The position numbers and the translations under genes were made by a program. From assembly GCA_903813345.2 (NCBI GenBank), contig CAIIXF020000003.1, positions 23,451,248 to 23,515,247 of the forward strand: a DNA stretch of 64,000 nt, in the 5' to 3' direction. How positions within the stretch are numbered: the stretch's first letter is position 1; each line of letters opens with the position of its first letter. This stretch comes from Owenia fusiformis. Taxonomy: Eukaryota; Annelida; Polychaeta; Sabellida; Oweniidae. Positions 11,901 to 57,100 of this stretch are shown here, one piece after another. The notes below the pieces were generated by a model. That model was not told where the DNA came from and made no database searches. It worked only from the letters and a program-made list of their open reading frames with translations.

Positions 11901-14900
11901 TGAAATAATAGAAAGTCTAATGATATAATTGGTTTAGATACTGACAAACTGGACTTCTAGCTAAGCTGGCCCAGCCTAAGTACCTGTTCCCTCTCCTTCT
12001 TCTAGTGCTTGGAATGTTTTGAGTATATTTCCATTGCTGGTGATCTCACCAGCCAGCGTAATCCAAATGTGAAAAGTTTCCTTGTTAAACTGAATAAATG
12101 AAAAACTGACTTGTCTTGGCAGAAACGTGAATAAACGTTCATGGCAAACAGATTGCATAAGATTTTGATCTATTTCAGATGTCTTACCAAAACGGAAAAT
12201 TATGTGGAACAGCCTTAATGGTGGGAAAAAAGAACTCCCCCTGGTGCTTGAAAATAGTTCTCGGCTATCCCACCAGCTGACGAATGCTATACTGAAAATC
12301 CTGTTAGAGGAGAAGCTAGGTTACAACAAAGTTGAGTTTAACAACACCGGTCATCAGTCCAATGTCAGTGAAGTCCTGACACGTGTTGCTGGCTGCTTGG
12401 GGAACAGGTATGTATCTGTAGTGCAGATGTTTTCCTTATAGAAAGTCTGTATATAATTGCTTGAATCACAAGGTTGTCCTGTGAAAAAGTAAGCAAGAGC
12501 TGAATTATGTATTGTTGAATATTTGTGTAAAGATTGATTAAACCTTAATACAATGTTAAAACAAAATACTTAATGTTAAAACATCCCAATCTTTATTATT
12601 TTTATAATTCTTACGAGTTCAACGTATACATAAAGTGTTATGCACTGGTTGCTCCATCCAGTATCATCATGTACTTGTGAGATAGATTGACCTGTAGAAC
12701 CGTTATGCCTATTGAGCTCTCTTTGTGTTGTTTCAGTTGTCCTCTCCTAGATGATAACAAGGTTGTTGTCAACATGGAAACTTGGGTTCCTCCAGGATAC
12801 ACAATTGCCAGCATTGACAATTCAATGATTAGAGCTAGGGTGACTGATGCTGGGCCACTTGGACCATTTGGAAGGTAATTAATGATGACATGTATTTATA
12901 TAAATGATTTTTGTTATTTAGATAATCTGAATGTTACCATTAAGAATGAACATTCATTGTCTTAACAAATAATTATTACATTTTTATGTCACCACCAGAA
13001 GTTGCACTGGTGGTTGGTGTTTGGCATTCAGTGTTTGGTGGTCAGTGTCTGTAACAAATGGCAGGTGGTGACATTTTGCATGTTAATGCCTTGTTGTTAT
13101 TACAATTTGGAGGTGACATTTGGTCAAGACCCCTTGAGGCAAAGGTTCTATTCTGTTTTTTGCTAACATCTGACATATTATGTAACTTAATAATCACATA
13201 TCAAAGTGTACACAAGTGTACTTAATCACATATCAAAGTGTACACAGAAAATACATTTTGACTAGCTCTAAGGAAAATATGATTCATAGTGATACTAGAT
13301 AGTATGCTCTTTGTTGTATAATGTTGCAATGATTGATTTGCGACAAAGTAAACCCTTGGTGCAATCTTGAATCGATTGAATTATTGTCTGTTGAGCCACA
13401 TACTGTATTTTTCAGATTTGGTTGGTATATCCCGAATTCCTTCGTTGACCAACAATGGAAAGATCATGAATTAATTGTTGACCACTGGAGGGTGCTGCAG
13501 GTTGGTCGCATCACGGACAAACTCTCGCTGAAGAATAATGACATCAGAGAAGTGCTTCTCTCAAAGATGAAGCGCCCTGGGATACATCGACAGCAGCCCT
13601 ACTATTGTGATAGCCCAAAATGTATAGATGGAATGTTAGTTGCAGATAGGTGCCATAGATCTAGACCAGAACACAATTGTGCAACATTGCTCAGCAGTTA
13701 TACAGGTCATTATAATAACATTTTTTCAAAGCTATTTGTCTCACGTCAATCTTTATTGTTTGCTTCTAATGTGTACACATATAGCAATCCAGTAGGTATC
13801 TAGGTGTCATGACATCTCAAGAGTCAGTTAAAGATATATGAGCCTCAACACAGGGAAACCGATTTTATCACTTAAATTAAAGTTGTGCTACAGAGCCAAA
13901 AATATGCCCATGTAAAAGAGGAAAATGTGCTAAATTCAAATCCGTCTTTTTGGTCTATATCTGCAAGGAAAATTTTTTAAGACATAAGCCATTGCTCACT
14001 CTAAGGCCTCTTTGTGCTTTTTAAGAAAAATATGTTTTCCTGTCCCCTGACTCATGTACACACGAGAACCAGAGGACTATGCAATGTAGGGTTTTGGAAT
14101 AAACTTCCCATTTTATTTTTGTGTGTGTTTATTCCTGTTTGACAGCTTTGTTCTTTATTTTCAATGTTCCAGATCTTGACTCAGGTCAGCTAGAAGCTAC
14201 AATCAAGAACCACGACTTAAAGGTGAACATAGCCTGGCTTGGTGAGCAGCTAGAGAGCTTTGTGACTCAGTGTGCAGAAGAGAACATCCCGACTCTCTTC
14301 TATAACTGGGAGCCCAACGTCTTAACAAATGGTGATGAGTTCACCCGTATTAAATTCGACCAAAGAGATTTTGAGAAATACCAAATGCGGAAAATGATTT
14401 GGAAGGAGTTGGCGAATGCTCCTGGTGGGAAACCTGCTCATGATCTCTTCCAATCAGTTCACTTCACGACGTCTCAGTATAACGATTTGTTGAGTAGTGT
14501 TAAAAGTTTACACCCAGATATCAATGAGCTAGCCTGTGATTGGATAAAAACACATCAGCCAGTATGGGAGCCATGGATGCCTTCTGAGGAAACTTTATCA
14601 GAAGGGAGTAAACTCTACATAGGGGGTATTTTTACACAGGCTTCAAGAGCATTTAGTGACCCTGCATCTGTATATGGAGCCACGATGGCTATAAAAGACA
14701 TCAATGCTAATCCCGACATATTGAAAGGTTATACACTGGAGTTGCTAGTAGAAAATAGTTCCTTTGATAAGAAAACTGCACTGGAGAAATTCATTGGCTA
14801 TATATACACGAAGAATCCTGAGAAAAAAGTTGTTGGAATCATGGGTAAGGAAATCTGAATTTTTTAGACCTTCCCACTAAATCCTGACCCCTTTTGATAA

Positions 14901-17900
14901 AACAAAGATACTGGTAATTTTGCAAGCAACAGTGTTTTTAAAAAAGTTGAAGTTTTTGAAAATCACCAATAAGTAGCTCTTAGCAATAAGTGGTAAATAA
15001 TGATGATTGTCATAAAAGTTAATGGTGATACAACTTTTATCAAGAGTAGCAATATCCCATCTCAATATATCCTATGGAGAACACTAGAACATCTAATCTT
15101 ATCTTATAGTTGGAGTTTAAGTTAGTATAAATTGTGCTTTTATGTTGCCACCACAAGTGGATGGTGTCCGGCAGTTGGTGTTTGATGTTAGGTGGTTGTT
15201 GTTTGATTTGTTTGGTGTCTGTAACAAATGGTAGGTGACATTTGTATTGAATTAGAAGACTTTTTTCAATGCTAATCTTAAGACAGTATTTAATTCGTAT
15301 ATTTGGAATGTTATGACTTTCCAGGGCCGGGACTAAGAGAAACCAAAGAGCTGGTACAGGTGGCAAACCTCTTCAGTACAATTATAATCAACTATAGTGA
15401 GTTTGAGGAATATGATGACAAACATTATCCATTTTTCTTCAATGCTAAACCTTCAGAGCGACAGATAAGGTATGCAAATATTTTAACAGATTAAAAAATG
15501 CTTTCAAGTTCTCGACTTTTCTTCACTGACTGTACAAACATGATGGAATTTAAGAAATTATCATGTAAAGATTTATATTGCTGAGAGTTTGATTTGCTTT
15601 CATTGTTGCCTTTCTAGATAATACAGTAAAACCTGTATAAAGTAAACACCTATGGAGGCACAAAAAGTGTTCACTGTAGGTAGGTGTAAAACCTGTATAA
15701 AGTAAACACCTATGTAGGCACAAAAAAGTGTTCACTGTAGGTAGGTGTTCACTACAGAGAGGGTTTTTATACAGTAGTTGATGTAAAATGTCTGTTGGAG
15801 TGGTGTTCACTAAGACAGTTTTTTTTCTGAATATTGGATACTATTTTTACTTCCAGCCAGCTGTATGTTGAGATGTTCCACCAATTAGGCTGGAGCAGGG
15901 TAGGTCTGCTAATCTCTGATGGTTATGATGGTCCTGAGGAGGTTCTGCAGGACAACAGTATAGATGTGATCACCAGTATAAAAGTTGCTGATGCTGATAT
16001 CATAGACAATGCAACTGCACAAAAGGTATTTCACTTATTGCTTGGACAATTCAACAGCAGAAAAAGTATTTCACTTATTACATGGACAATTCAACAGCAC
16101 AAATGGTATTTCATTTATGGTATAGACAATTCAACAGTAAAAAGGGAATGACATTTAGGAGCAAATTGAACTGGGACTGAATTCCAACATTAAACTGTCA
16201 CTGCCAACAAAATTCTAATAGGCCTTACTGGAACTGCAAGTTAAAACTCCTAGGCTAGCAGTAAATATGTATTGCCTGGTTGCCAATCTCCTGGAGTTTG
16301 ATCTTTGACTGGCAATCACACAAACATGCAAATAAACGCACAAAATGTGATGTATTGACTGACCTCAGATCTTTTTATGACTTCCTCCTATCAGATTAAG
16401 ACAGATGGAGGGATAGAGAGGCTAAACAATAAACAGACCATTAGTCTTCAGAGACATTATTCTTAAAACTAAAATTGTTTTTATATCTTCATACTTGCAG
16501 TACCTTCAGCAGCTTAAACTCCTGGGAGTGACAATTATCGTAGTTCATGCTGAGGAATATTCAACTGCAGTCATTATGAAAGAAGCTTTCCATCAGGTAA
16601 AATTTAGCTTTCGTAATGCTTTTTAGCATATAAGGACTTTAGTTAATACAGGTCTCATTATGTCACCATTTCATATTGTTATAGGCTCCAACTTTTTTAT
16701 GGACAGTATTCAGCGGTTGGCATTCAGCTTTTGGTGGTTGGCATTCAGCATCTGTTACATCTGTAATGGCAGGTGGTGGCATTGTGCATGTTAATGCCTT
16801 GTTTTGAATTGCCTTTAATTGTTGACACTTTGTCATGTGAAATATGATTTAATTCAGTCATAGATAGCCATTGTCTTAATAGAAGTAAAAGAAATTACAT
16901 AAACAAAATTAATTTGTTATACTTTGATTGCATCAGGCATCCTTTTATTTAGAAATACACTAAACCATTCTTCCATCTCTTTATTGTAGAAAATGACAGC
17001 AGAATATGGTTATGTTTGGTTCCTGCCTTACACGCCCCACTGGTCTATGAGAAACTTTGAATTTGAAATGGACATTGAGGTAGTGAAAGCAACACTGGGG
17101 GCCATGAGCTTAGACATGCAGTTCCTGGATAAACCTGATACGCAAGTTATAGGTGACCATACTGTTGAACAATGGAAGCAGAGTTATATGAAGACCATAA
17201 AACAAGAGGTACACAAGTAAATTTACTTGCAAAAGGTTTTGTTCATATTGTTACATCGTGAATTAAATTTTCTGCATATCCATGGTTTAATGTTTCAGTC
17301 GTACTGTGGTTAGGGTGCCCTTTTCATCATGATTTAAATGGCCAACCACACTTGAAAATCATCATTTGTACCTATTATTTTAAATTCTTTTATGTAATCA
17401 TTGAGAAAATGTCATTGGAAATGGCATTCTGAATCTGCTGGATCTACCAGAATAATGACAGTTTTTGAAACTTTTGTTTTTTAACAGCTGTTTCTTTTAA
17501 ACTACCCGAAAAACTACAGAAAATAACCCAATAAAAATAGACTGTAGAATAACACTTTTTTCAAAAGATTGACTGTATTTTTCATTTTAGGTTGGCCAGA
17601 ATGCCTACCCCAGTCCATTGGCACCTTACACGTATGAATCTGCCTGGGTGTTTGCCTTGGCCCTTGATAGACTCAACAAGGAGATTGATAGGGGAATTGA
17701 AGAGCTTTTTGGAGAGAAAAAAAGGTTTGTAGATACACTGTATAAGCAGTATAGGCCCTAAGGATCTGAAACCTGCTGGTCAAAATGGCCTTACTGACCA
17801 GTCGCAATGTTATTTTCCTATACCTAGTGAAAAATGAAAAAATCAACTGGTCCGTGTCAAAAGTAACCTGGTATAATAACCAGCGGACTGGCCTACATTG

Positions 17901-20900
17901 TGTACACATATTCATGCTTTGATCCAAGTAGGGGTTGCCCTTCGCTAGAGTTTAGCTTTATGTACATGCTTTAAATTAGACTTTATTGCATGATCCTGTC
18001 TAGATAGATTTTATGCTGATAATGCATATACAGGTATATGAAGGCTAGCTAAAATCTAGGATGAAGAACATTTGTAGGCTTGTGACTTAGTATCTTGTAA
18101 AACATGTGTTTTATATTTCCAGCAACACTTTTAAAAATTTTACTGAGTTCGTGAGTGAAATCAGATTCCAAGGTTTGGCGGGGGAGTTTTCTTTCCAAAA
18201 CAACAGGCGACCAGGGGTGATCAATCTCTTTCAATACCAGATGGATTCCTCACAGTTAATCAATTCAAGCCATTTGGAACTCGTGGGTCAATATAAGTCA
18301 TACACTGGTGCCTCGGAACGCCTCAACTTGACTAAAGTGGTCTGGTATGATGGCGGACAGATTCCAAGTGATATTGGAGATTTAGGTAATTTGATTGGAT
18401 ATACAATACATGTATTTATTGAATGATTTGATTGAATGAAAAAACATGGTGTATTGTTATAGTTTCCAACTTTATTGTGGGTGGTGTTTGTTGGTCAGCA
18501 GTCAACGTCTGTGATAAATTCGTACAACTTCCAATAATTTAACAATTACTGTTTAGACTGACTTCAAATTATTACTGTGAACATAAAATGTTATTAATAA
18601 TACTTGATAGTTCTTAAAAGCCAATGTGAGCTACATTTTTAATGAATTCTACAAAATACAAATGGTAGTTTGTAACTTTTCCAGAGCACAGTAATTCTAC
18701 AGAATTGGGTCCACTGGAATACTGTCATGTAGAAGCATTACGAGCTGCCTTAGGTATTACATGTAATGAAGCGAAAACTGTTGCGAATATAATGGGTGCT
18801 GTTGGATTCATTCTGATCGTTATGATAGCATTGGTGGTTATAAAAAAGAGGTGAGATGTATTTCACAATTACAGTTATTATTGTGTGTGAATGTATAATT
18901 GTATGTATATCTTTATTGCACTTTATGAAAAGGAGAAGCATGTATACAGTGTCCAATGAAAATAATGGTAATATAACATTAATGTGCAAATGAACATAGA
19001 ATATCAATATATACAATATATAAAACACACTGGGTTATCTCCAATAAGTGGTGACATATTGTGGTTGTAACCAATTTTTGAATGGACATTTAGCTTTGGC
19101 ATTTGGTGAATGTCCAGCCCCATAGCCATCTCTTGCCAAGGGGTTCACTTTTCAAAGAATGCCCCAAAATCACTTGAAAAGTGCTCAGAATGGTGAAAAA
19201 CTGCATGATTTTGAAATAAATGTTGCCAGGAAAAAAGAACCCCCTAAACTACAGGCCTGATGTCATAAACTTTATACCTTTGAAATTGCAACTTATTATG
19301 TTAATGCCGTGTCTTATAGCTCACTTTGCACTTCTTCCTTGTAGATATGACAGAAAAATGAAGCGAACGAGGGCTAGAATGCAAGAGCTCGGTCTGATGT
19401 CAGACTTTACTTGGCTCTCATTGGATGAGTGGGAGATGGCTCGTGACCAGGTGGTGCTAAATCGTAAATTAGGGGAGGGGGCATTTGGCACAGTGTATGG
19501 AGGGAAGTGCTGTATTAATAATGAATGGCAGGCTGTTGCAGTGAAAACATTAAAAATTGGCTCAACTGTAGAAGAAAAGGTGAGAGAAATATCTGCTCAA
19601 TCTATGTAGAAACAGGAATATTTAATGGTCATGTCACTATGACATGAAATATGCCTGAGTTCTCCCAATAAAGGCCGACCTTGGGAGTCTCTACATTTGG
19701 GCAAGAAAGAAGACATATTTCACGTCATAGTGACACAACTGATGTATTACATACCTTTATTCTCATGGCTACATTGTGATGTCACACATCTGTGTGTGAG
19801 TAGAATTTGATCGAAATGAATATAGCCCGAAGTGGATATAGCCCGCTAACTTTCCCATTGACTGTTTCACGAGGCATGTAATACACATGTACTGTATATT
19901 CTTTCTCAGAAAAATATTGATATGATCTGAGAGTTGCAATAATTGATATTCCTCAAAATATGATATATTCGAGTAATATCCAATTACGATATTCAAAATT
20001 ATCATACATATCCTCACCATACAAGGATCACATTCACTACAGCATAATCTAAATTTTCTACACTTTTCTTACAGCTGGACTTTTTAAGTGAGGCCAATAT
20101 TATGAAAAGATTTAATCATGAGAATATTGTAAAACTACGAGGTGTTTGCACTAGAGGGGAGCCTGCATACGCCATAATGGAGTTCATGTTGTTTGGTAAG
20201 ACTCATTATTTCATCTTTCATGAGGTACTGTACTGATGATGAGTTGATTTTAGCATTTTAGCCAGTTTATGAACAAGGTCATTACAGTTAAACCTGTGTA
20301 CTATGTACACCCATGAAGCCACAAAAAGTGTTCTCTGTAGGTATGTGTTCACTGCAGAGAGGCGATTTTATACAGAAGTCAGTATAGTATGTGCCGCCTA
20401 GAAGGGGTGTTCACTAGACACAAGTGTTCACGATGACAGGTTTCACTGGATATTTTTGAAAGCTCAAAAACATGGATTTATTTAAATATCAATCCAACGA
20501 AATTCAGATTCAATTTCTTCAACTGAATTTGCTAGATGCTCGATCAAATTGAAAATAATGTAATTTTTTTGCAGGTGATCTTAAGAGTTATCTGTCAGCT
20601 AGGCGGGACCTAGTGGGTAGCAAGAGTAAGGAGAGTCATGACGTGTCAGCTCTTAGTCTCACTCGTATGGCACTAGATGTCGCTAGAGGCTTGAAGTATC
20701 TCTCCGATCTCAATTATGTACATAGGTGAGTTTTGTGCAAAGGTGAGCATTTCACAAATGTGAATATTTTACATTAAGTGGCTGCTTGATAAAGATGAGT
20801 ATCTACATAGGATTTTGTACATTAGTAAGGAGGCTAATTTTGATTCTTAATTGGAAGTAATCATTTAAATAAAAAAACATCATTATATACTTTAGTTCTT

Positions 20901-22671
20901 AAAAAGTGTATACAGTCAGAAGTTGGTGAAAAACCATCTCCCAATCATTTAAGTAAATTACAGATAATTTGATGAAATGTTTTGTTTTCTGGGGCTAATT
21001 TAGTAAATCATTCAATGAAATACATGATGCATTTACTCGTATTTTATGCACATTCTTACAATTATGCTTGTTAATTTGTAGGGACATTGCATGTAGGAAT
21101 ATGCTGTTGAACAGTGAAAAAGTGGTTAAGATTGGAGACTTTGGTCTGACACGTTCTATGTATGACTCTGACTACTACCGTTGCAATAGGAAAGGTATGT
21201 ATGACAAGTTCGTACCGATAACATGTGAAAATCACTTTGAAGGTACAATGCAGACCCTTAAATAAAATCCTGTGTAAATGAGCTGAAAAACAAAATAGTT
21301 TTGCTTTGTGAATGTTCAGAATGTTTTACATGTTTGAAAAAAGATTTCGCATAAAACTTAGTTTGGATAAATATAATACTGTAAATATAATTTTGTCACC
21401 AGTGGTTGTGACATATTGTTCTTCGAGTAGTCCCCAACTTTTTGTGGATTGCGTTTGGTGGTCAGCTTTTGGCGTTCAATATCTGTAGCAAATTAACAAC
21501 TTGCAAGGTGGTGACATTTTGTCATGTTAATGCCTTGTTATTTCTGTTTTATAGGGCGATTTCCAGTCAGATGGTGGGCTCCTGAGAGTCTATCAGAGGG
21601 TAAATTCACCTCAAAAGCAGACATGTGGAGCTATGGAATTCTCCTGTATGAAATCTCAACATTTGGCAGTTTTCCCTACCAGGGACTCTCCAATAATCAG
21701 GTGCTGAAATATGTCACAAGTGGATTCACATTGTGGCTGCCAAAAGATATAAATAGTAAATTGTAAGTATGAAGCTCATTTGGAAGATTTGCTGAAAAAT
21801 GAGTATCAAGTATGTACTTGCACAATTTGTAATTCAATGGTAATGATCATTATAATATCGTCTACATTTCAGGCGAACACTGTTAATGCAGTGCTGGTTA
21901 AAAGATCCAGAGAAACGGCCAACTTGTGATCAAATAATCAATGTAATACATCATAATAGTAAGTTGATAGTGCCATGCTTGGATGCCCCCATGGCGTCAG
22001 TGGCATTAGAGACAAATGGGGAAACTGGATCTGACTCTTTAGAGCTCCCAGTCAGTATCCAAGCCTCTCAAAATCACAAACTACTACGTAGTGTCAGTGA
22101 ACCATCAAAAGACCCGGTGCACCCAGAATGCCAAAGACTCATGGATGAGATGGCTGATGATACTGTATCAGGCTCTAGTATTCATCTTGATGATCTCACA
22201 GTTCATCTCTCGGCATCTATGCCTGAAACATGCGAGAGAATCATCACTCAAAATTTCGCTCACTCTAAATCACACGATCCAGATCTTAACAGACGGATTA
22301 ATATAAATGCTCCTGAATCGCTCATTACGCAAGAGAAAAGTGAACCATTAGAATCTGATATTAATCATAAAGACCCCTTAGAAAAAAATCATCATCCAAA
22401 TTTTCATGAACCTAATAATCGAAGGAGTAACAAACGGATGTCAAAATCTAAGCAAAGGAATGCGATATCTCAAGATGGGGAATACCCTGTACTTTATCGA
22501 GGGAATGGTACCACAAGTAGTTATGAGAGAGATAGTCCAAGTTCTCCGAGACTAACCCCAACCAAACTGCAATTTATGCTCTCTCACGATGAGAAGGATA
22601 GTGATTATAGTAGTGACCATTCCAAGGAAACTAGAAGGAATTACCAAGACAACTGTGTTAGCCATGTATGA
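8886..22671 (+). CDS. VKR: Venus kinase receptor (Venus flytrap + insulin-receptor-like tyrosine kinase)
   Basis: Single-pass receptor tyrosine kinase of the invertebrate VKR family: a Venus flytrap outside the cell, an insulin-receptor-like kinase inside. In other animals the family is tied to reproduction and amino-acid or peptide signals. Exons (all GT-AG, phases agree): 8886-8964, 12179-12407, 12737-12874, 13416-13705, 14173-14844, 15325-15469, 15857-16025, 16501-16596, 16990-17208, 17591-17724, 18123-18385, 18685-18850, 19345-19579, 20075-20195, 20575-20725, 21082-21194, 21555-21762, 21873-22671. Predicted 1,408 residues. ATG 8,886 is the first in frame after a TAG at 8,871; ATG 8,892 is also possible. 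Order: signal peptide, N-terminal binding-protein-like region, flytrap, membrane helix (about 845-865), kinase (about 900-1175), tail. All core kinase motifs are present, so it should be active. The exon 4 donor (GTCATT) is the weakest call. Confidence 0.92.
9484..9866. repeat. Inverted-repeat element in VKR intron 1 (about 110-bp arms)
   Basis: The left arm starts GGTACTAACTTTGACCGTT and runs through CAGATGTTTGAAAATCAAGG. The right arm contains TTTTCAAACATCTGGTAGGT and ends GAAGTTAGTACC. The arms are long and imperfect; the middle is about 150 bp. This is a fold-back MITE-like element with no coding capacity; the small minus-strand frame at 9,629-9,820 is part of it. Confidence 0.75.
10366..11145. 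mobile_element. 780-bp Tc1/mariner-type MITE in VKR intron 1
   Basis: The termini CTACTTTTTTCAAGGCCTGA and CAGGCCTTGAAAAAAGTAG are inverted repeats, flanked on both sides by TA (10,364-65 and 11,146-47), the target duplication of Tc1/mariner transposons. The inverted arms extend through the CCTTTAGAAGGT and ATTAAGATTCGGGTTC segments. The right arm carries a roughly 45-bp insertion. The only open frame (10,828-11,010, minus) is short and unlike a transposase, so the element is non-autonomous. Confidence 0.8.
12179..14600 (+). other. VKR: VKR exons 2-5: N-terminal binding-protein-like region
   Basis: Residues about 27-385. The region has a run of features I associate with glycine-betaine/choline type substrate-binding proteins (type-2 periplasmic fold): an early segment ending ILLEEKLGY, then NMETWVPPG, then DRCHRSRPEHNCATL, WLGEQLESF and LFYNWEPNVL. 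Cysteines lie around NCATL and CDSPKC. Together with the following type-1 flytrap this would put two ligand-binding modules in one ectodomain. The fold assignment is from remembered motif patterns, not a search. The region may be shared by other VKRs, whose length of about 1,300 residues leaves room for it. Confidence 0.55.
12986..13096. repeat. GTCACCACC element, copy 2 (VKR intron 3)
   Basis: Starts ATGTCACCACCAGAAGTTGC, has the shared core TGTCTGTAACAAATGGCAGG and ends GGTGGTGACATTTTGCATG with the TTAATGCCTTGTT tail. It is one of the clearest copies of the family. Confidence 0.75.
15141..15245. repeat. GTCACCACC element, copy 3 (VKR intron 5)
   Basis: Starts TATGTTGCCACCACAAGTGG, contains the core GTGTCTGTAACAAATGGTAG, and ends in GGTGACATTTG. 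Shortened relative to the copy at 60,467. Confidence 0.65.
15625..15760. repeat. ACAGTAAAACCTGT-type element, VKR intron 6
   Basis: Contains two near-identical tandem units of TAAAACCTGTATAAAGTAAA followed by CACCTATG, GGCACAAAAA and GTGTTCACTGTAGGTAGGTG. Relatives lie at 20,285-20,450, 26,650-26,888 and 30,893-31,085. The 26,650 copy has inverted ends ACAGTAAAACCTGT and ACAGGTTTCACTGT, so this is probably a DNA-transposon-derived family. Confidence 0.6.
16005..16138 (+). repeat. 40-bp tandem repeat across the exon 7 donor of VKR
   Basis: The segment starting GACAATGCAACTGCACAAAA, followed by the donor GTATTTCAC, recurs at exact 40-bp steps (GACAAT at 16,005, 16,045, 16,085 and 16,125). The first copy contains the end of exon 7 and the real donor at 16,026. 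Copies 2 and 3 carry donor-like GTATTT at 16,066 and 16,106. Because 40 is not a multiple of 3, use of a later donor would shift the frame. Confidence 0.85.
16659..16805. repeat. GTCACCACC element, copy 4 (VKR intron 8)
   Basis: Starts TATGTCACCATTTCATATTG, has TCCAACTTTTTTATGGACAG and GGTTGGCATTCAGC, and ends GGTGGTGGCATTGTGCATG with the TTAATGCC tail. Confidence 0.7.
17747..17901. repeat. CAGTATAGGCCCTA inverted-repeat element, copy 1 (VKR intron 10)
   Basis: Begins CAGTATAGGCCCTAAGGATC and ends near TGGCCTACATTG, inverted ends of about 12 bp. The body contains ACCTGCTGGTCAAAATGG and TTATTTTCCTATACCTAG, both repeated in the copy at 52,064-52,209 in a KIF15 intron. Confidence 0.7.
18456..18525. 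repeat. GTCACCACC element, degraded fragment (VKR intron 11)
   Basis: Carries only the middle of the family: TTCCAACTTTATTGTGGGTG, then GGTCAGCAGTCAACGTCTG and TGATAAATTCG. Both ends are lost. Confidence 0.4.
18685..18850 (+). other. VKR: VKR exon 12: juxtamembrane and transmembrane helix
   Basis: After a cysteine-bearing stretch (LEYCHVEALRAALGITCNEA) comes the hydrophobic segment IMGAVGFILIVMIALVVI and then KKR, a stop-transfer signal. Exon 13 continues with a very basic sequence (RYDRKMKRTRARMQ), as expected on the cytoplasmic side. The acceptor is TTTTCCAG and the donor AG|GTGAGA. Confidence 0.88.
19040..19112. repeat. GTCACCACC element, degraded fragment (VKR intron 12)
   Basis: Contains AATAAGTGGTGACATATTGT and then a diverged AGCTTTGGCATTTGGTGAAT stretch. 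It directly abuts the element at 19,113. Confidence 0.4.
19113..19260. repeat. CAGGCCCGTAACCAGG-type element, copy 2 (VKR intron 12)
   Basis: Shares the internal core AAAATCACTTGAAAAGTGCT and TGGTGAAAAACTGCATGATT with the element at 2,672-2,880 and ends CTACAGGCCTGA. The ends are more diverged, so it is an older copy. Confidence 0.65.
19632..19734. repeat. Palindromic element in VKR intron 13
   Basis: The left arm GTCACTATGACATGAAATAT is matched by a right arm containing ATATTTCACGTCATAGTGAC, separated by about 60 bp that themselves pair in part (CCCAATAAAGG, CCTTGGGAG). Short fold-back element, no coding potential. Confidence 0.65.
20285..20450. repeat. ACAGTAAAACCTGT-type element, VKR intron 14
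   Basis: Starts TACAGTTAAACCTGTGTACT, contains GCCACAAAAAGTGTTCTCTG and AGGTATGTGTTCACTGCAGA, and ends CGATGACAGGTTTCACTGG, the inverted partner of the start. Confidence 0.65.
21393..21542. repeat. GTCACCACC element, copy 5 (VKR intron 16)
   Basis: Starts TTTGTCACCAGTGGTTGTGA, contains CCCCAACTTTTTGTGGATTG and GTGGTCAGCTTTTGGCGTTC, and ends AAGGTGGTGACATTTTGTC with the GTTAATGCCTTGTTAT tail. It ends about 12 bp before the exon 17 acceptor, so the element contributes part of that intron's 3' end. Confidence 0.75.
22000..22671 (+). other. VKR: VKR C-terminal tail
   Basis: About 230 residues after the kinase, polar and apparently disordered, rich in Ser, Asn, Asp and His, with basic SNKRMSKSKQRN and the proline-directed patches SPSSPRLTPTK. 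Tyrosines in GEYPVLYRG and DSDYSSD could be phosphorylated, but I see no firm adaptor motif. The last codons and the stop lie at the start of a tandem repeat that continues into the 3' region. Confidence 0.8.
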
Positions 22672-22960
22672 CACACAGGAAGAAATTACCCAATCACTTC
22701 TGTTAGCCATGACACAGGAGGAAATTACCCAGTCACCTTTAAGTAAGCTATGTATGACACATAGGAGGAAATTACCCTATCAGCAATCACCTCTGTTAGC
22801 CATGACACAGGAGGAAATTACCCAGTCGCCTCTAAGTAAGCCATGTATGACACATAGGAGGAAATTACCCTATCACCTCTGTTAGCCATGACACAGGAGG
22901 AAATTACCCAGTCACCTCTAAGTAAGCCATGAATGACACACATGAGGAAATTACTCAATT
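22634..22960 (+). repeat. Tandem repeat starting across the VKR stop codon
   Basis: Units of GGAGGAAATTACCCAGTCAC, then CTCT(G/A) and GTTAGCCATG or AAGTAAGCCATG plus TATGACACA repeat about six times with alternating variants. The first, most diverged unit includes the last VKR codons (through GTTAGCCATG) and the stop TGA at 22,669-22,671. The rest is 3' untranslated. The open frame at 22,589-22,885 in another phase is a shadow of this array. Confidence 0.75.
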
Positions 22961-42100: not shown

Positions 42101-45100
42101 TCGGAGCGGGACGTAAAGCTATATCTGCCCGCTGATGAAAATATAAGTTTTTACAAACCGGCTTTATGTACCCGTAACACGTCCAAGTATGGGATAAAAG
42201 AGTCTTTAGTATTGCACTCATCTTAAAATATTATTCAATAGAACTGGTGTCATGTCTAATTTAATGATTTTCAGAGATGGGGACTCGATCAAGGTGTACC
42301 TGCGGGTACGCCCCATGGACAGTTCCATAGACAGCAGCACTAATTGCTTAGATGTAAACACAAACAGAAATTCAATTGTCATGCAATGCAAACCTGAGCC
42401 AAAATTATTCACATATGACTGTGTAGGGGATTCTAATATAACACAGGTAAGGATGGGTAAATGTCTCCGCTCAATCGATATTCCCCTTGTATTCAGTTTA
42501 CTAAGTATTACCTCTATGTGAGAAGTTGATGATTGTGATTCTTCCAGCTTTAGACCTACAGTACATAGATCTCATTAACACTTGCATTAGTTTCCCTTTG
42601 AAGAGTGGTACTCCTTGATTTGCAGGACAGCGTGTTCCAAACAGCAGCAACTGACATCATAGAATCAAGCATTAGTGGCTATAATGGGACCATATTCGCT
42701 TAGTAAGTAATCCATTGATTGTTATATAAGCAACTTTTGCAATATAAAGACCGTGATAGAACATTTAAATATTGTAGATTTTTAAAATAATTTAACATTA
42801 AAGGCTAGAAGTCTTGATTCATTGTTTAAATAAGAAATGATTACTGTATTCATAAAAAATGACCTTTCATAAATTTTATTCATATTTACAACCCCTAGAA
42901 GTGATGCATATTTAACATACTATTTTATGTCATCACCAGAAGTGTTTATATATTGTTACTTGTTAGTCTCCAACAATTTTGTGTTTGGTGGTCAGCTCTG
43001 TAGCAAATGGCAGGTGGTGACACGTTAATGTCTGTTGTCTGTTGTTAGATTATATTTCCACCTCTGAGACAACCAATGAAAAGTACTGAAGACCTGACGT
43101 GTGTACATAACCATTTTCTTTTTCTTCCAGTGGTCAAACAGGGTCAGGTAAAACATACACAATGTTAGGACCTTCTGAACTGGAGAGCTTCCAGAATGAC
43201 AAGCGAGGACTGATTCCACGCAGCTTTGAGCACCTTTTCCAAAATATCCGGGGTAAAACTGAATCTGTAAGTAGGTTTATTGAATTAAGAAATATATGCA
43301 TTAAAAGTTTAATTGAATACCACTCATAACATATATGGGACACCCTGTATTCCTTACCTTGTAAGATCCAAGTTCCTCTATATCTTGTGCCTGGAAGTGA
43401 AAAATTTCAAAGCCACAGTGCCATGGGAAGTAACCAAGATTTTGCTCGAAGCCTGAATCCCAATGAACCCTAGTCATGCTTGTATGAGGAAAAATAGAAG
43501 GCTCTCTACCTTTGTTCATTTTATCTTGTGTTTCTTGTCTCCTTAATACCTGTTTTAAAAGTCACTCAGTACATTAAACATCACTATACAGTATTGCATT
43601 ATATTGATATATTTTGTGATTCAGACTGACAATGATACAAAATGGGAGTTCCTTATCAAAGTGTCATTCCTTGAGATCTACCAAGAACAAGTGTATGACT
43701 TACTTGATACAACAGCTGCCCCTAAGCACCTGAGGGAAGACATCAAGAGAGGGGTCTATGTAGAAGCTCTCACTGAGTATACTGTCAGCAATGCAGCTGA
43801 GGCTTACGAGGTAAATATTTTGTGACTTGGAAAGTTAAATTACATGTTTTAAGAGAACTTTTAAGTGAATGTGTAATAAGACCCAGAGGGATGCTTCAGT
43901 ATATTCCATGGACCTCTTTACAGGCATTTGAATTCCTTTACATTTATACTCAATTTGGCAAGTAAATACCAAGTGGAGAACTTAGTAGCCCATCTACTTT
44001 CTATTTGTTAAGAACGTATATCTGTTGTGTACAAACATGAGGTTATGTTTGGTTGGTCAGAAATATGGAGTAAGTACTTCAATTCATACATTTGATCAAG
44101 AGGTGGCTGCATCATATTAAATGAATGTAACCAAACTTTTCATTAATAAATTCAGGTGTTATCCACTGGTTGGAACAGCCGCACTGTAGCAAGCACACAA
44201 ATGAACAGAGAGAGTTCAAGAAGTCATGCTGTGATGACTGTCACCATAGAGTCAAAGGTGAGGCAACTTGTATAATCAATTTCAATATACAATGTGACCC
44301 AATAGTAGGTTTACAGTTATTCAACAATCCGTATACTGTAACTGTAAACCTACTTTTGGGCCAACCGGTATTTGCCCACAAATCAATATTGTAACAAACA
44401 AGTCGATTGCTTTGATTTGAAATGTTCAGAATATTGATCGATAAACTGATTGAATTGAATTGTGATTGTAGGAGACCAGAGGAGAAGTAGAGAATGTTCG
44501 GATGTCCCAGTTACATCTCGTTGATCTCGCAGGTTCCGAGAGGCAGAAAGACACAAATGCCGTTGGTGGTCGATTAAAAGAAGCAGGGAGCATAAATAAA
44601 TCTCTTTCCACTCTTGGACACGTCATGATGACGTTGGTAGAGAAAGGAAAGGGAAAACAGCGGTTTGTGCCATATAGAGACTCCAAGTTGACCTTCCTTC
44701 TTAGGGTGAGGTTCTTGATAGTAAAAGAACTTACTTCAAATTTTAAATCATACTTTAAGTAATGTTGATACTACATACTTGTACTTGTTAATTTGTTTTA
44801 TATTAAGAGATTTTTATGCACCCCTCCCTAATCTTGCACAGTTAGAATCAGATGTGGAATTTAGAAGCTTTATCAGCATGAAAAACTGATCTAGAAAAAA
44901 GGTCTGTTGCTTTTACGATAAAATGCCTCGAAAACCTTTTTCCTTGAGGTATTTTTAAATTGGTATCCGTATTATATTATTTTATAATGCATTGTACTGT
45001 TGTGATAACATGTACTTCCAGGATGCTTTGGGGGGCAATGCCAAAACATTTATGATTGCATGTGTACATCCTGGCTTCAAGTAAGTTATACTAACCTGTA

Positions 45101-48100: not shown

Positions 48101-51100
48101 TCAGATCAGAAATGATGGAAATGTGGTCTTTACTCTATCTAGGTTAGACAAGAAAAAGAAGAAATGAAAGAAGGTTTTCGTAAAAAAGAAATTGAGCTAC
48201 AAGCTGACATCGAGGCAAAGGATTCCTATATACAAGAACTGGAGACTAAATATAAGGCAACCAAAGCAAAGAATGCAGCATCACACCAACTTCATAATGA
48301 CTTGATCAAGGTTGGTCTGAACTTTTACAATTTAAGATGTTCTATGATAAAAACATCAATACCTTAAATACTTTGAAAATATGGCACAAATGATTGTTCT
48401 ACATATCTTTACTAGAGGAATAAATATTATAATTCACTATTTTTGACAATCCACAAAATAATAGTGTAATGTGATTATGTTTTGAAAGGTTACAAGCTAA
48501 AGTATTGGATTTTATTAGTATCACTGGTATTTCTGGCACTATACTTTGAGAATTTTTCATTGAATTTTTGATAATGTTCTTTAGAGATTAACTCCAACGA
48601 AGTCTTCATTGAAGTACAACTTGCGTAATCGCCCTGTATTAGGCCCCAGGGATAGCCTGACCCCAGGTGGCTACTCTGATGATGAAGAGGGTATCTCTGA
48701 TATGTTGGCACCTCAACAGATGATTGATGAGGAGAAAGAGACTCTCAGGGAAGAGCTTCATAAAGTCAAGGTAGGTTCAGTTTTGATTAAAATGTCTAAT
48801 TAAATGTATCAACAGATGATTGATGAAGAGAAAGAGACTCTCAAGGAAGAGCTTCATAAAGTCAAGGTAGGTTCAGTTTTGAGTAAAATGTCTAATTAAA
48901 TATCTCAACAGATGATTGATGAAGAGAAAGAGACTCTCAGAGAAGAGCTTCATAAAGTCAAGGTAGGTTCAGTTTTGAGTAAAATGTCTAATTAAATGTC
49001 TCAACAGATGATTGATGAGGAGAAAGAGACTCTCAGAGAAGAGCTACATAAAGTCAAGGTAGGTTCAGTTTTGAGTAAAATGTCTAATTAAATGTCTCAA
49101 CAGATGATTGATGAGGAGAAAGAGACTCTCAGAGAAGAGCTACATAAAGTCAAGGTAGGTTCAGATTTGAGTAAAATGTCTAATTAAATGTCTCAACAGA
49201 TGATTGATGAGGAGAAAGAGACTCTCAGAGAAGAGCTACATAAAGTCAAGGTAGGTTCAGTTTTGAGTAAAATGTCTAATTAAATGTCTCAACAGATGAT
49301 TGATGAGGAGAAAGAGACTCTCAGAGAAGAGCTACATAAAGTCAAGGTAGGTTCAGTTATGATTAAAATGTCTAATTAAATGTCTCAACAGATGATTGAT
49401 GAGGAGAAAGGGACTCTCAGAGAAGAGCTACATAAAGTCAAGGTAGGTTCAGTTTTGATTAAAATGTCTAATTAAATGTCTCAACAGATGATTGATGAGG
49501 AGAAAGAGACTCTCATAGAAGAGCTACATAAAGTCAAGGTAGGTTCAGTTATGATTAAAATGTCTAATAATTAAATATCTCAACAGATGATTGATGAGGA
49601 GAAAGAGACTCTCAGAGAAGAGCTACATAAAGTCAAGGTAGGTTCAGTTTTGAGTAAAATGTCTAATTAAATGTCTCAACAGATGATTGATGAAGAGAAA
49701 GAGACTCTCAGAGAAGAGCTACATAAAGTCAAGGTAGGTTCAGTTTTGATTAAAATGTCTAATTAAATATCTCAACAGATGATTGATGAGGAGAAAGAGA
49801 CTCTCAGAGAAGAGCTACATAAAGTCAAGGTAGGTTCAGTTTTGAGTAAAATGTCTAATTAAATGTCTCAACAGATGATTGATGAAGAGAAAGAGACTCT
49901 CAGAGAAGAGCTACACGAGGTTCAGTTTTGAGTAAAATGTCTAATTAAATATCTCAACAGATGATTGATGAAGAGAAAGAGACTCTCAGAGAAGAGCTAC
50001 ATGAGGTTCAGTTTTGAGTAAAATGTCTAATTAAATATCTCAACAGATGATTGATGAGGAGAAAGAGACTCTCAGAGAAGAGCTTCATAAAGTCAAGGTA
50101 GGTTCAGTTTTGATTAAAATGTCTAATTAAATGTCTCAACAGATGATTGATGAGGAGAAAGAGACTCTCAGAGAAGAGCTACATAAAGTCAAGGTAGGTT
50201 CAGTTTTGAGTAAAATGTCTAATTAAATGTCTCAACAGATGATTGATGAGGAGAAAGAGACTCTCAGAGAAGAGCTACATAAAGTCAAGGTAGTTTCAGT
50301 TTTGATTTAAAGGTCCATCTGCCGAATTGTTATGTTAGCATCAAACAGTGTTGCCATAATTATAGTTGCCACATTTGTGACTGGAGTTTTGATTCAGAGA
50401 CACCAGCATGAATTATGTTTGTATATTTTTGTTTATTCTGTTTAGAACTTAACTAAACTGTCGTTCATTGATAGTCATTTGAAATAGCCTTGTGATTTCA
50501 GCTTTTCAGAAAATCACAAAGAAAGTGAAAATATGGGCTTTTGTTGTATTAGTTTAAAAGGTACACTGATACAACATTTGTGCAACTCTTAAGTTTTGAA
50601 CACTTTCTCTTGATATTAGGATGCTAACCTTGAACTTGAGAAGAAGGTAGAGGCAGCAGAGAATATGGGTTATAATCCTATGCTAAAGGCTGAAAGTGAA
50701 AATATGGTCCTTTGTTGTATTAATTTAAAAACTACACTGATCCAACATTTGTACAACTCTGATTTTCTCTTGATATTAGGATGCTAATCTTGAAGTTGAG
50801 AAGAAGTTGGAAGCAGCAGAGGCAGATCTCATAATGACAAGACAAACCAGGTCTAAGCTGGAGCATCAAAATGAGAAACTGGAAGATGTAAGTAAATTTT
50901 CTGTGTGTAAGCATGATTGTGATCACGATATAAGATTACATCTTATCTATCAGTCAGTGTCACTTGGTAATATACCTAAGTTTTGTCAGTCATATACTGT
51001 AGTTTTCATTTTTCTAGTTTTGCTCTATTCCAACTTTCTTACTATTACATTATTCTAACTACTATAATATTGGATGAGTATGTTATATTTTCAGTTGTTG

Positions 51101-54100: not shown

Positions 54101-57100
54101 TTAACTAATTTAAAGATTCTCATATTACTTTGAGTTCCTAGTAAAGTATAACTTGAAAGTTGAGTTAATGTTGTAAAAGTGTAGGTTTTAGATTTAAACA
54201 CATCCATCCATTCATTCATTAATCTTTTTATTTCGTTCATTTTAGTTATCCCTGATGCGTGATGAGTTTGACTATAACATAGAGTCTGCCAATGATGCTT
54301 TAGAGGCAGAGCAAGCATCCTGCAAATCACTTGAGGCTGAGCTTCAGTTGATTACATGTAGTTAATTCATTTGTTTATTTCAGTTATCCCTGATGCGTGA
54401 TGAGTTTGACTATAACATAGAGTCTGCCAATGATGCTTTAGAGGCAGAGCAAGCATCCTGCAAGTCACTTGAGGCTGAGCTTCAGTTGATTACATGTAGT
54501 TAATTCATTTGTTTATTTCAGTTATCCCTGATGCGTGATGAGTTTGACTATAACATAGAGTCTGCCAATGATGCTTTAGAGGCAGAGCAAGCATCCTGCA
54601 AGTCACTTGAGGCTGAGCTTCAGTTGATTACATGTAGTTAATTCATTTGTTTATTTCAGTTATCCCTGATGCGTGATGAGTTTGACTATAACATAGAGTC
54701 TGCCAATGATGCTTTAGAGGCAGAGCAAGCATCCTGCAAGTCACTTGAGGCTGAGCTTCAGTTGATTACATGTAGTTAATTCATTTGTTCATTTTAGTTA
54801 TCCCTGATGCGTGATGAGTTTGACTATAACATAGAGTCTGCCAATGATGCTTTAGAGGCAGAGCAAGCATCCTGCAAGTCACTTGAGGCTGAGCTTCAGT
54901 TGATTACATGTAGTTAATTCATTTGTTCATTTCAGTTATCCCTGATGCGTGATGAGTTTGACTATAACATAGAGTCTGCCAATGATGCTTTAGAGGCAGA
55001 ACAAGCATCCTGCAAGTCACTTGAGGCTGAGCTTCAGTTGATTACATGTAGTTAATTCATTTGTTCATTTCAGTTATCCCTGATGCGTGATGAGTTTGAC
55101 TATAACATAGAGTCTGCCAATGATGCTTTAGAGGCAGAGCAAGCATCCTGCAAGTCACTTGAGGCTGAGCTTCAGTTGATTACATGTAGTTAATTCATTT
55201 GTTTATTTCAGTTATCCCTGATGCGTGATGAGTTTGACTATAATATAGAGTCTGCCAATGATGCTTTAGAGGCAGAGCAAGCATCCTGCAAGTCACTTGA
55301 GGCTGAGCTTCAGTTGATTACATGTAGTTAATTCATTTGTTTATTTCAGTTATCCCTGATGCGTGATGAGTTTGACTATAATATAGAGTCTGCCAATGAT
55401 GCTTTAGAGGCAGAGCAAGCATCCTGCAAGTCACTTGAGGCAGAGCTTCAGTTGATTACATGTAGTTAATTCATTTGTTTATTTCAGTTATCCCTGATGC
55501 GTGATGAGTTTGACTATAACATAGAGTCTGCCAATGATGCTTTAGAGGCAGAGCAAGCATCCTGCAAATCACTTGAGGCAGAGCTTCAGTTGATTACATG
55601 TAGTTAATTCATTTGTTTATTTCTGTTATCCCTGATGCGTGATGAGTTTGACTATAACATAGAGTCTGCCAATGATGCTTTAGAGGCAGAGCAAGCATCC
55701 TGCAAATCACTTGAGGCTGAGCTTCAGTTGATTACATGTAGTTAATTCATTTGTTTATTTCAGTTATCCCTGATGCGTGATGAGTTTGACTATAACATAG
55801 AGTCTGCCAATGATGCTTTAGAGGCAGAGCAAGCATCCTGCAAGTCACTTGAGGCAGAGCTTCAGTTGATTACATGTAGTTAATTCATTTGTTTATTTCA
55901 GTTATCCCTGATGCGTGATGAGTTGGACTATAACATAGAGTCTGCCAATGATGCTTTAGAGGCAGAGCAAGCATCCTGCAAGTCACTTGAGGCAGAGCTT
56001 CAGTTGATTACATGTAGTTAATTCATTTGTTTATTTCAGTTATCCCTGATGCGTGATGAGTTTGACTATAACATAGAGTCTGCCAATGATGCTTTAGAGG
56101 CAGAGCAAGCATCCTGCAAATCACTTGAGGCAGAGCTTCAGTTGATTACATGTAGTTAATTCATTTGTTTATTTCAGTTATCCCTGATGCGTGATGAGTT
56201 TGACTATAACATAGAGTCTGCCAATGATGCTTTAGAGGCAGAGCAAGCATCCTGCAAGTCACTTGAGGCAGAGCTTCAGTTGAGGAATAAGGAACTAGAG
56301 GGAATAAACAAGGAGGTAATATTTCAATAAAAAGCATGGATGTAAGAGTGGATGTAAATGTAAACTTCTTTACAGTAAGTTAGTTAAAAAGTCACACAAT
56401 TAAAATACATAAAAGAAAATACAATTCAACAAATATGTCCAGCCGCTGCCGACTTATGAGTCACAATAAAATGTGTCTTCTACGCCACATTTTAAAAATA
56501 CATACAAGCTGTTGGAAGAAGCAATACTCCATAGTCATCAATCTATTATCTGTTAATTATATATAAAAAAGATGTAATCACGATAAAAAGACTATCTTGT
56601 GTATTATAGAAGAAGCAACACCACAGAGTTATCTAGCCATTATCAAGTATAAAATAAATATATGGTTGCAATACAAAAGCCTGGTTAGTGTATTATTATG
56701 TCACAGCCACAAGTGGTGACATCTTGTTCATCTCCAACTTTTTTTTGTGGAGGGTGTTGTGTGGTTGGTGTTTAACATTCAGCGGTTGATGTTCAGCATT
56801 TGGCAGTTGATGTTCGGCATTTGGTGTCTGTAACAAATAACAAGTGGTGACATTTTGAGTGTTAATGCTCGTTATGCTTGTTATGTTTGTAGTTCTCCAA
56901 GAGGTCTGAGCAGTACTACAAGTTACAGGAAGAGTTTGCTAAGTTGGAAGCTGAGAGGACATCAGAGGATGTTGTTAGAGGGTTACAAGACAGGAATGAT
57001 GAGCTGAGAACAGAGGCTGAAAGGTGAGTATAATGAACAGTTTTGGAAAATTGGGCTACCTCAATAGGCATATCTTCCAACATTAAATGAAAATAAAATG

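Follow-up and report, generated by a model that had tools for sequence, protein, structure and literature searches.

Tandem repeats that span exon-intron boundaries, known as mirages, have been described in the lancelet genes for Adh3, the globins BflGb6 and BflGb9, PGBD5, and troponin C (PMC3087553, PMC3902484). The published repeat units measure 10 to about 160 nt and lie on either the donor or the acceptor side of the boundary, and many copies carry a splice signal and adjoin an authentic exon. Concerted evolution, from which copies at the boundary are exempt, and length instability among individuals or cells are further properties ascribed to mirages. PMC3087553 describes lancelet globin genes with tandem repeats across both 5′ and 3′ boundaries; Adh3 data together with globin RT-PCR suggest there that regular splicing is undisturbed, and a mirage copy is proposed as a possible later exon. 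In PMC3902484, PGBD5 is added to the mirage genes, troponin C is cited as another, and the mirages of Adh and troponin C are stated to yield no aberrant mRNAs.

Tandem duplication is also the basis of a model of intron gain (the Rogers model), in which it creates a GT...AG interval, with examples from potato RdRp (PMC4974935) and Drosophila (PMC2891723). For the potato gene, RNA reads support a new intron that arose from a duplication across an intron-exon boundary; one splice site, the acceptor with its pyrimidine tract, was inherited, and the other was recruited from exonic sequence. Many tandem copies of exonic segments within one gene are furthermore known from the exon arrays of Dscam (PMC1397879), and many small exon-like segments per gene from the schistosome micro-exon genes, with exons of 3-81 bp, introns of up to 5 kb, and secreted products (PMC10526429).

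Here, we describe two arrays of the mirage type in a single KIF15-like kinesin gene, located in a stretch of 64,000 nucleotides (the window). Array 1 (48712-50305) is very likely a mirage-type minisatellite on an exon-intron boundary that is removed together with its intron. As in the lancelet mirages, the units of both arrays span a boundary, and many of their copies carry a splice signal and adjoin an authentic exon. The locus differs from known mirages in its many copies (17 and 15, compared to 6 and 3 in two lancelet BflGb6 haplotypes) and in that a single gene carries two such arrays with opposite polarity. With potato RdRp, array 1 shares the geometry of a GT...AG interval with one inherited and one recruited splice site; however, it is the donor that array 1 inherits, its acceptor is weak, its spacers are devoid of a pyrimidine tract, and both arrays are described here from DNA, whereas the potato intron was shown by RNA reads. 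The schistosome genes, for their part, differ from the 45-nt spacers and the kinesin product seen here, and compared to Dscam, array 1 lacks complete exons bearing good acceptors of their own. Moreover, Dscam copies are diverged alternatives, whereas the copies in the present arrays are near identical.

Among the matches listed in a search of open-licence papers, none described such an array in KIF15, and boundary minisatellites with multiple copies appeared there for lancelets only; a search aimed at molluscs had no match. The GC content of the window (34.5%) is lower than that of lancelets (roughly 41%), so that the host may be found outside this group. In that case, the mirage phenomenon would extend past cephalochordates.

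Two boundary arrays in a KIF15-like gene

The host gene lies on the + strand and comprises 30 coding exons between 42252 and 61976 in our own exon model, which was built from sequence without RNA. The predicted motor fragment (328 aa, with the exon at 42626-42702 absent from it as well as from the scored splice-site sets) matched the Pfam family Kinesin (4.7e-94), and its top four matches in the PDB were all KIF15 (best E 2.3e-112), with KIF4 as the next kinesin (6.3e-67). The C-terminal piece (282 aa) matched HMMR_C (7.1e-10), while a family search with the middle piece (390 aa) gave no match. The combination of a motor closest to KIF15 and an HMMR-like C-terminus identifies the predicted protein as KIF15 (kinesin-12). 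Scans against Rfam (gathering threshold) and for tRNAs gave no matches.

Array 1 begins within the 15th coding exon of this model (48585-48770, + strand), which an earlier note on this DNA had numbered exon 17. It consists of 17 tandem copies of a 96-nt unit that combines the final 59 nt of this exon (48712-48770) with the first 37 nt of its intron, i.e., from an exon 3′ end, a donor, and an intron start. TRF reported 16.8 copies of 96 nt with 95% matches and a score of 2811; therefore, the array does not represent a chance pattern. In a standard unit, CTCAACAG (8 nt) is followed by 51 nt from the end of the exon and then by 37 nt from the beginning of the intron. Copies start at 48720, 48816, and so on to 50239, and their exonic parts cover 48720-50289, in agreement with the count and span given in the earlier note.

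Several details that had been reported for all copies turned out to apply to most of them. TCAACAG was indeed seen before all 17 copies, and the acceptor-like CTCAACAG of copy 0 is coding sequence (encoding QQ), as had been proposed. GTAGGT follows 14 of the 17 copies (0-11, 14, and 15), while copy 16 carries GTAGTT and copies 12 and 13 have neither. Phase 0/0 holds for the 51-nt exonic part of the 15 donor-keeping copies. Likewise, 13 of the 16 spacers are GT...AG intervals of 45 nt, the first of which (48771-48815, +) reads GTAGGT...CTAAT...TCAACAG; one spacer measures 48 nt, and two measure 35 nt and are devoid of GT. Copies 12 and 13 (49875-50046, +; 86 nt each) are 10 nt shorter than the standard unit and have lost the donor AAG/GTAGGT (exon/intron), with read-through leading into an in-frame TGA. 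Copy 8 contains a 3-nt insertion, and the last copy (50239-50305, +; donor GTAGTT, 7.75 bits) passes into diverged intron sequence. Read-through beyond the exonic part meets an in-frame stop in all 17 copies.

Identity between copy 0 and the later copies extends upstream of the 51-nt part by 8 nt in 15 of 16 cases and by 7 nt in copy 1. Since this flank reaches into the QQ codons of the exon, the founding duplication would have had its start within the exon and its end within the intron. Units 3, 5, 9, 11, and 15 are identical, while the edge copies 0, 1, and 16 differ. Unit distance showed little correlation with separation in Mantel tests of array 1 (r 0.05, P 0.36) and of the second array described below (r 0.14, P 0.14).

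Array 2 (54230-56283, +), which the earlier note had missed, is located in the same gene and consists of 15 tandem copies of a 138-nt unit comprising an intron end, an acceptor, and approximately the first 105 nt of an exon. Copies 0-13 read into an in-frame TAA, and only the last copy continues to the rest of the exon and its donor (GAG/gtaata, 7.9 bits), constituting the sole complete exon of the array (56178-56315, +). The only donor-like sequence in copies 0-13, CAT/GTAGTT, is weak (3.5 bits), and its use would give an intron of 26 nt and an exon of 112 nt; the addition of one copy shifts the frame and meets stops. Acceptors score 10.5 bits in 10 of the 15 copies and lower in the other five, with the AG being lost in copy 10 (TTTCTG).

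Arrays 1 and 2 are thus mirror images of each other, with donors lacking good acceptors in the former and acceptors lacking good donors in the latter. At the boundaries of our model, the unit of array 1 spans the donor at 48770 and that of array 2 the acceptor of the exon at 56178, so that both boundary types known to be repeated in mirages, 5′ and 3′, are found repeated within one gene. As large boundary-spanning arrays that share a gene but differ in polarity, the two provide a natural matched pair for the question of whether mirages seed introns or are ignored by splicing, as array 1 could in principle form symmetric mini-exons and array 2 could not. They also represent a warning to annotators, since a first gene-finder pass predicted coding segments in both of them even though splice sites within the arrays had been masked.

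Splice sites and the proposed fate of the array 1 copies

The matrix used for scoring splice sites was derived from the gene models in the window (29 donors and 32 acceptors), with leave-one-out used for the acceptor minimum. It omits the donor at 48770, the acceptors at 56178 and 43131, and two donors from exons with ends placed one base off; the receptor-kinase model, which is less certain, contributed 4 donors and 6 acceptors. In array 1, the standard donor AAG/GTAGGT scored 10.9 bits, which exceeds 27 of the 29 modelled donors. However, the acceptors of the 16 added copies (-1.49 to -2.07 bits) all fell below the lowest of the 32 modelled acceptors (0.73; median 8.3), with the matrix having been trained on exons that were found with a generic splice consensus biased to T-rich acceptors. 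Most of the six motor-domain acceptors, which are supported by homology, look T-rich, but the one at 44156 does not, and acceptors in the KIF15-like gene are therefore not uniformly strong. The coding sequence at the acceptor-like position of copy 0 reached -0.85 bits, and 47% of 516 intronic decoy AGs scored at least as high as the standard array 1 acceptor. The acceptor of the next coding exon (50780-50887, +), which is the expected partner of the 48770 donor, scored 8.6 bits.

These scores bear on the proposal of the earlier note, in which every copy represents a mini-exon bearing splice sites of its own. On such a reading, some or even many among the 14 added copies that are intact would be spliced in via 45-nt introns, and the KIF15 stalk would vary in length. 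The strong donors (10.9 bits), the AG at every copy start, the symmetric 51-nt frame, and the CTAAT located 20 nt upstream of the AG, which is a good branch-point match, all speak for such splicing. YTRAY was found at 12 of 27 modelled acceptors and at 130 of 461 decoys. We nevertheless consider this proposal improbable. The added acceptors lie below all 32 modelled ones and resemble decoys in 16 of 16 copies, which contrasts with the acceptor comparable to real ones expected of a tandem-duplication intron, and two copies lack the standard donor, which contrasts with the acceptor and donor borne by each Dscam-type copy. Furthermore, the copies of array 2 have accumulated although they cannot be spliced singly. 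The shortest other intron in the KIF15 model measures 179 nt (42447-42625).

A frame-preserving AG (yielding a mini-exon of at least 12 nt) within the last 59 exonic nt was found at 23 of 25 other donors in this gene, and a YAG at 12 of 25, which also counts against the mini-exon proposal. Neither phase 0/0 nor an exonic AG can therefore be regarded as surprising in itself. The gain of up to 268 residues envisaged in the earlier note (14 x 17 + 2 x 15) would require the substitute donor GAG/GTTCAG in copies 12 and 13, which scored -0.29 bits compared to 11.13 for the standard donor; donors at the standard position would add 238 residues (14 x 17) at most.

The coiled-coil register was examined with a simple a/d scoring of hydrophobic residues of our own. 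In the one-copy protein, the heptad register runs unbroken across the repeat unit and on into the exon that follows. The scoring bore out the earlier suggestion that a 17-residue insert shifts the register: every additional copy displaces it by 51 degrees, with the original register restored only at seven extra copies (or multiples thereof), so that the inclusion of copies would place a register break at each 17-residue unit, a further point against translated mini-exons. The mean core score drops only slightly, from 4.16 with one copy to 3.72 with 17, and a product with extra copies may thus stay locally helical.

Array 1 therefore probably belongs, as an unusual case, to a known kind of repeat, and sixteen additional functional exons are the less likely reading. 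We suggest that the array was founded by a tandem duplication of 59 nt from the exon end together with the donor and 37 nt of intron, an anatomy that is directly visible in the units, and that later slippage or unequal exchange would have raised the array to 17 copies. TCAACAG would then represent former exonic bases that end in AG by chance and not selected acceptors. In this respect, the earlier note appears to have been right that the duplication turned exonic bases into the AG at the spacer end, as exonic CTCAACAG is placed there in the manner of the tandem-duplication models for the birth of introns in PMC3087553 and PMC4974935. In the transcript, splicing would connect the copy 0 donor at 48770 with the strong acceptor at 50780, and the other 16 copies would leave with the 2.0-kb intron. 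As the splicing machinery recognizes an exon by its acceptor and donor as a matched pair, copies with only one good site would be skipped and lost with the intron. Copy number would be expected to vary among individuals while the protein stays unchanged.

A less strict version, in which the copies are mostly skipped but low-level inclusion or the use of alternative donors occurs as noise or as early intron birth, also appears unlikely. The AG and GT of mirages could act as cryptic sites according to PMC3087553, and the spliced potato RdRp intron arose by duplication across an intron-exon boundary (PMC4974935). However, if a later donor were used but no array acceptor upstream of it, a spacer containing an in-frame stop would be retained.

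Synonymous variants shared among copies

Exonic variants of both arrays were found to be synonymous in 7 of 11 cases compared to 2.7 expected (P 0.004). Only the first 41 nt of copies 12 and 13 entered this count, whereby the CAC of copy 12 beside the deletion was dropped as well. Of the variants common to at least two copies (48720-50289 and 54246-56282), six out of six are synonymous (1.5 expected, P about 9e-5), although the split into shared and singleton variants was made after the data had been seen. Singleton variants, by contrast, are non-synonymous in 4 of 5 cases over both arrays and in 3 of 3 in array 1.

At first sight, the shared variants of array 1 (3/3 synonymous) favor translated mini-exons. 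Array 2 shows the same pattern (3/3), thereby supplying half of the six cases, although its copies cannot be spliced or translated one by one; the translation of every copy can therefore not be the whole cause. The mostly non-synonymous singletons likewise count against mini-exons. That some array 1 copies are spliced in via 45-nt introns with formerly coding acceptors and that selection on translated copies contributes to the synonymy of shared variants is hardly probable. If such ongoing exon or intron birth were true, the length of the KIF15 stalk would vary with minisatellite copy number.

We favor the view that seeding from the translated copy may account for the synonymous excess in part. 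In simulations with the edge copy alone translated, 38% of shared variants were synonymous under uniform duplication and 46-63% under edge-biased duplication, while the control values were 28-29% in the absence of any translated copy and 100% when every copy was translated. Uniform exchange with a single translated edge copy was rejected as a cause, as it yielded 26% compared to 29% in the untranslated control. With values of 26-63%, the edge-copy simulations account for only part of the synonymous constraint. One array 2 variant (site 93, P 0.002) showed a clear gradient in the direction of the translated copy, and the same test gave P values of 0.06 to 0.82 for the other five shared variants.

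Other exon-edge repeats in the window

Close to the downstream end of array 1, the acceptor and the start of the next exon are present in an older second copy (50521-50661, +; exon part from 50620) with 82% identity to 50692-50821. The donor chosen for it by the gene finder scored -6.0 bits, and this upstream copy resembles a pseudo-exon that lacks a good donor.

A third, degenerate exon-edge array (16001-16145, +) consists of 3.7 copies of a 40-nt unit and spans the predicted donor at 16025 in a receptor-kinase-like gene. Three of 10 arrays in the window contain a splice site compared to 0.79 expected, which is a marginal enrichment (P 0.046); the 10 arrays, with units of at least 31 nt, were condensed by hand from 46 TRF rows.

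The presence of three arrays containing a splice site, one of them degenerate, also argues against a misassembly that produced the copy number or the whole of array 1. Tandem arrays are often misassembled, which counts in favor of such an artifact. A lancelet mirage was, moreover, apparently assembled aberrantly in a draft genome, according to PMC3087553. However, copies of array 1 carry private substitutions, a 3-nt insertion, and 10-nt deletions, and such differences show that they are not stacked duplicates of one stretch; we regard an assembly artifact as extremely improbable.

Further features of the window concern a possible receptor kinase. The ORF at 14103-14858 matched ANF_receptor with 26.6 bits (cut-off 25.4; the exon alone reached 24.6) and, below the cut-off, an OpuAC-like substrate-binding domain, while the exon at 19346-19579, located downstream, matched a tyrosine-kinase-like family. 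Based on these matches, the two segments may possibly belong to an unusual receptor kinase. Additionally, an array with an 86-nt unit (22660-22954) begins at the last codons and the stop of the predicted receptor-kinase gene, whose ORF ends at 22671.
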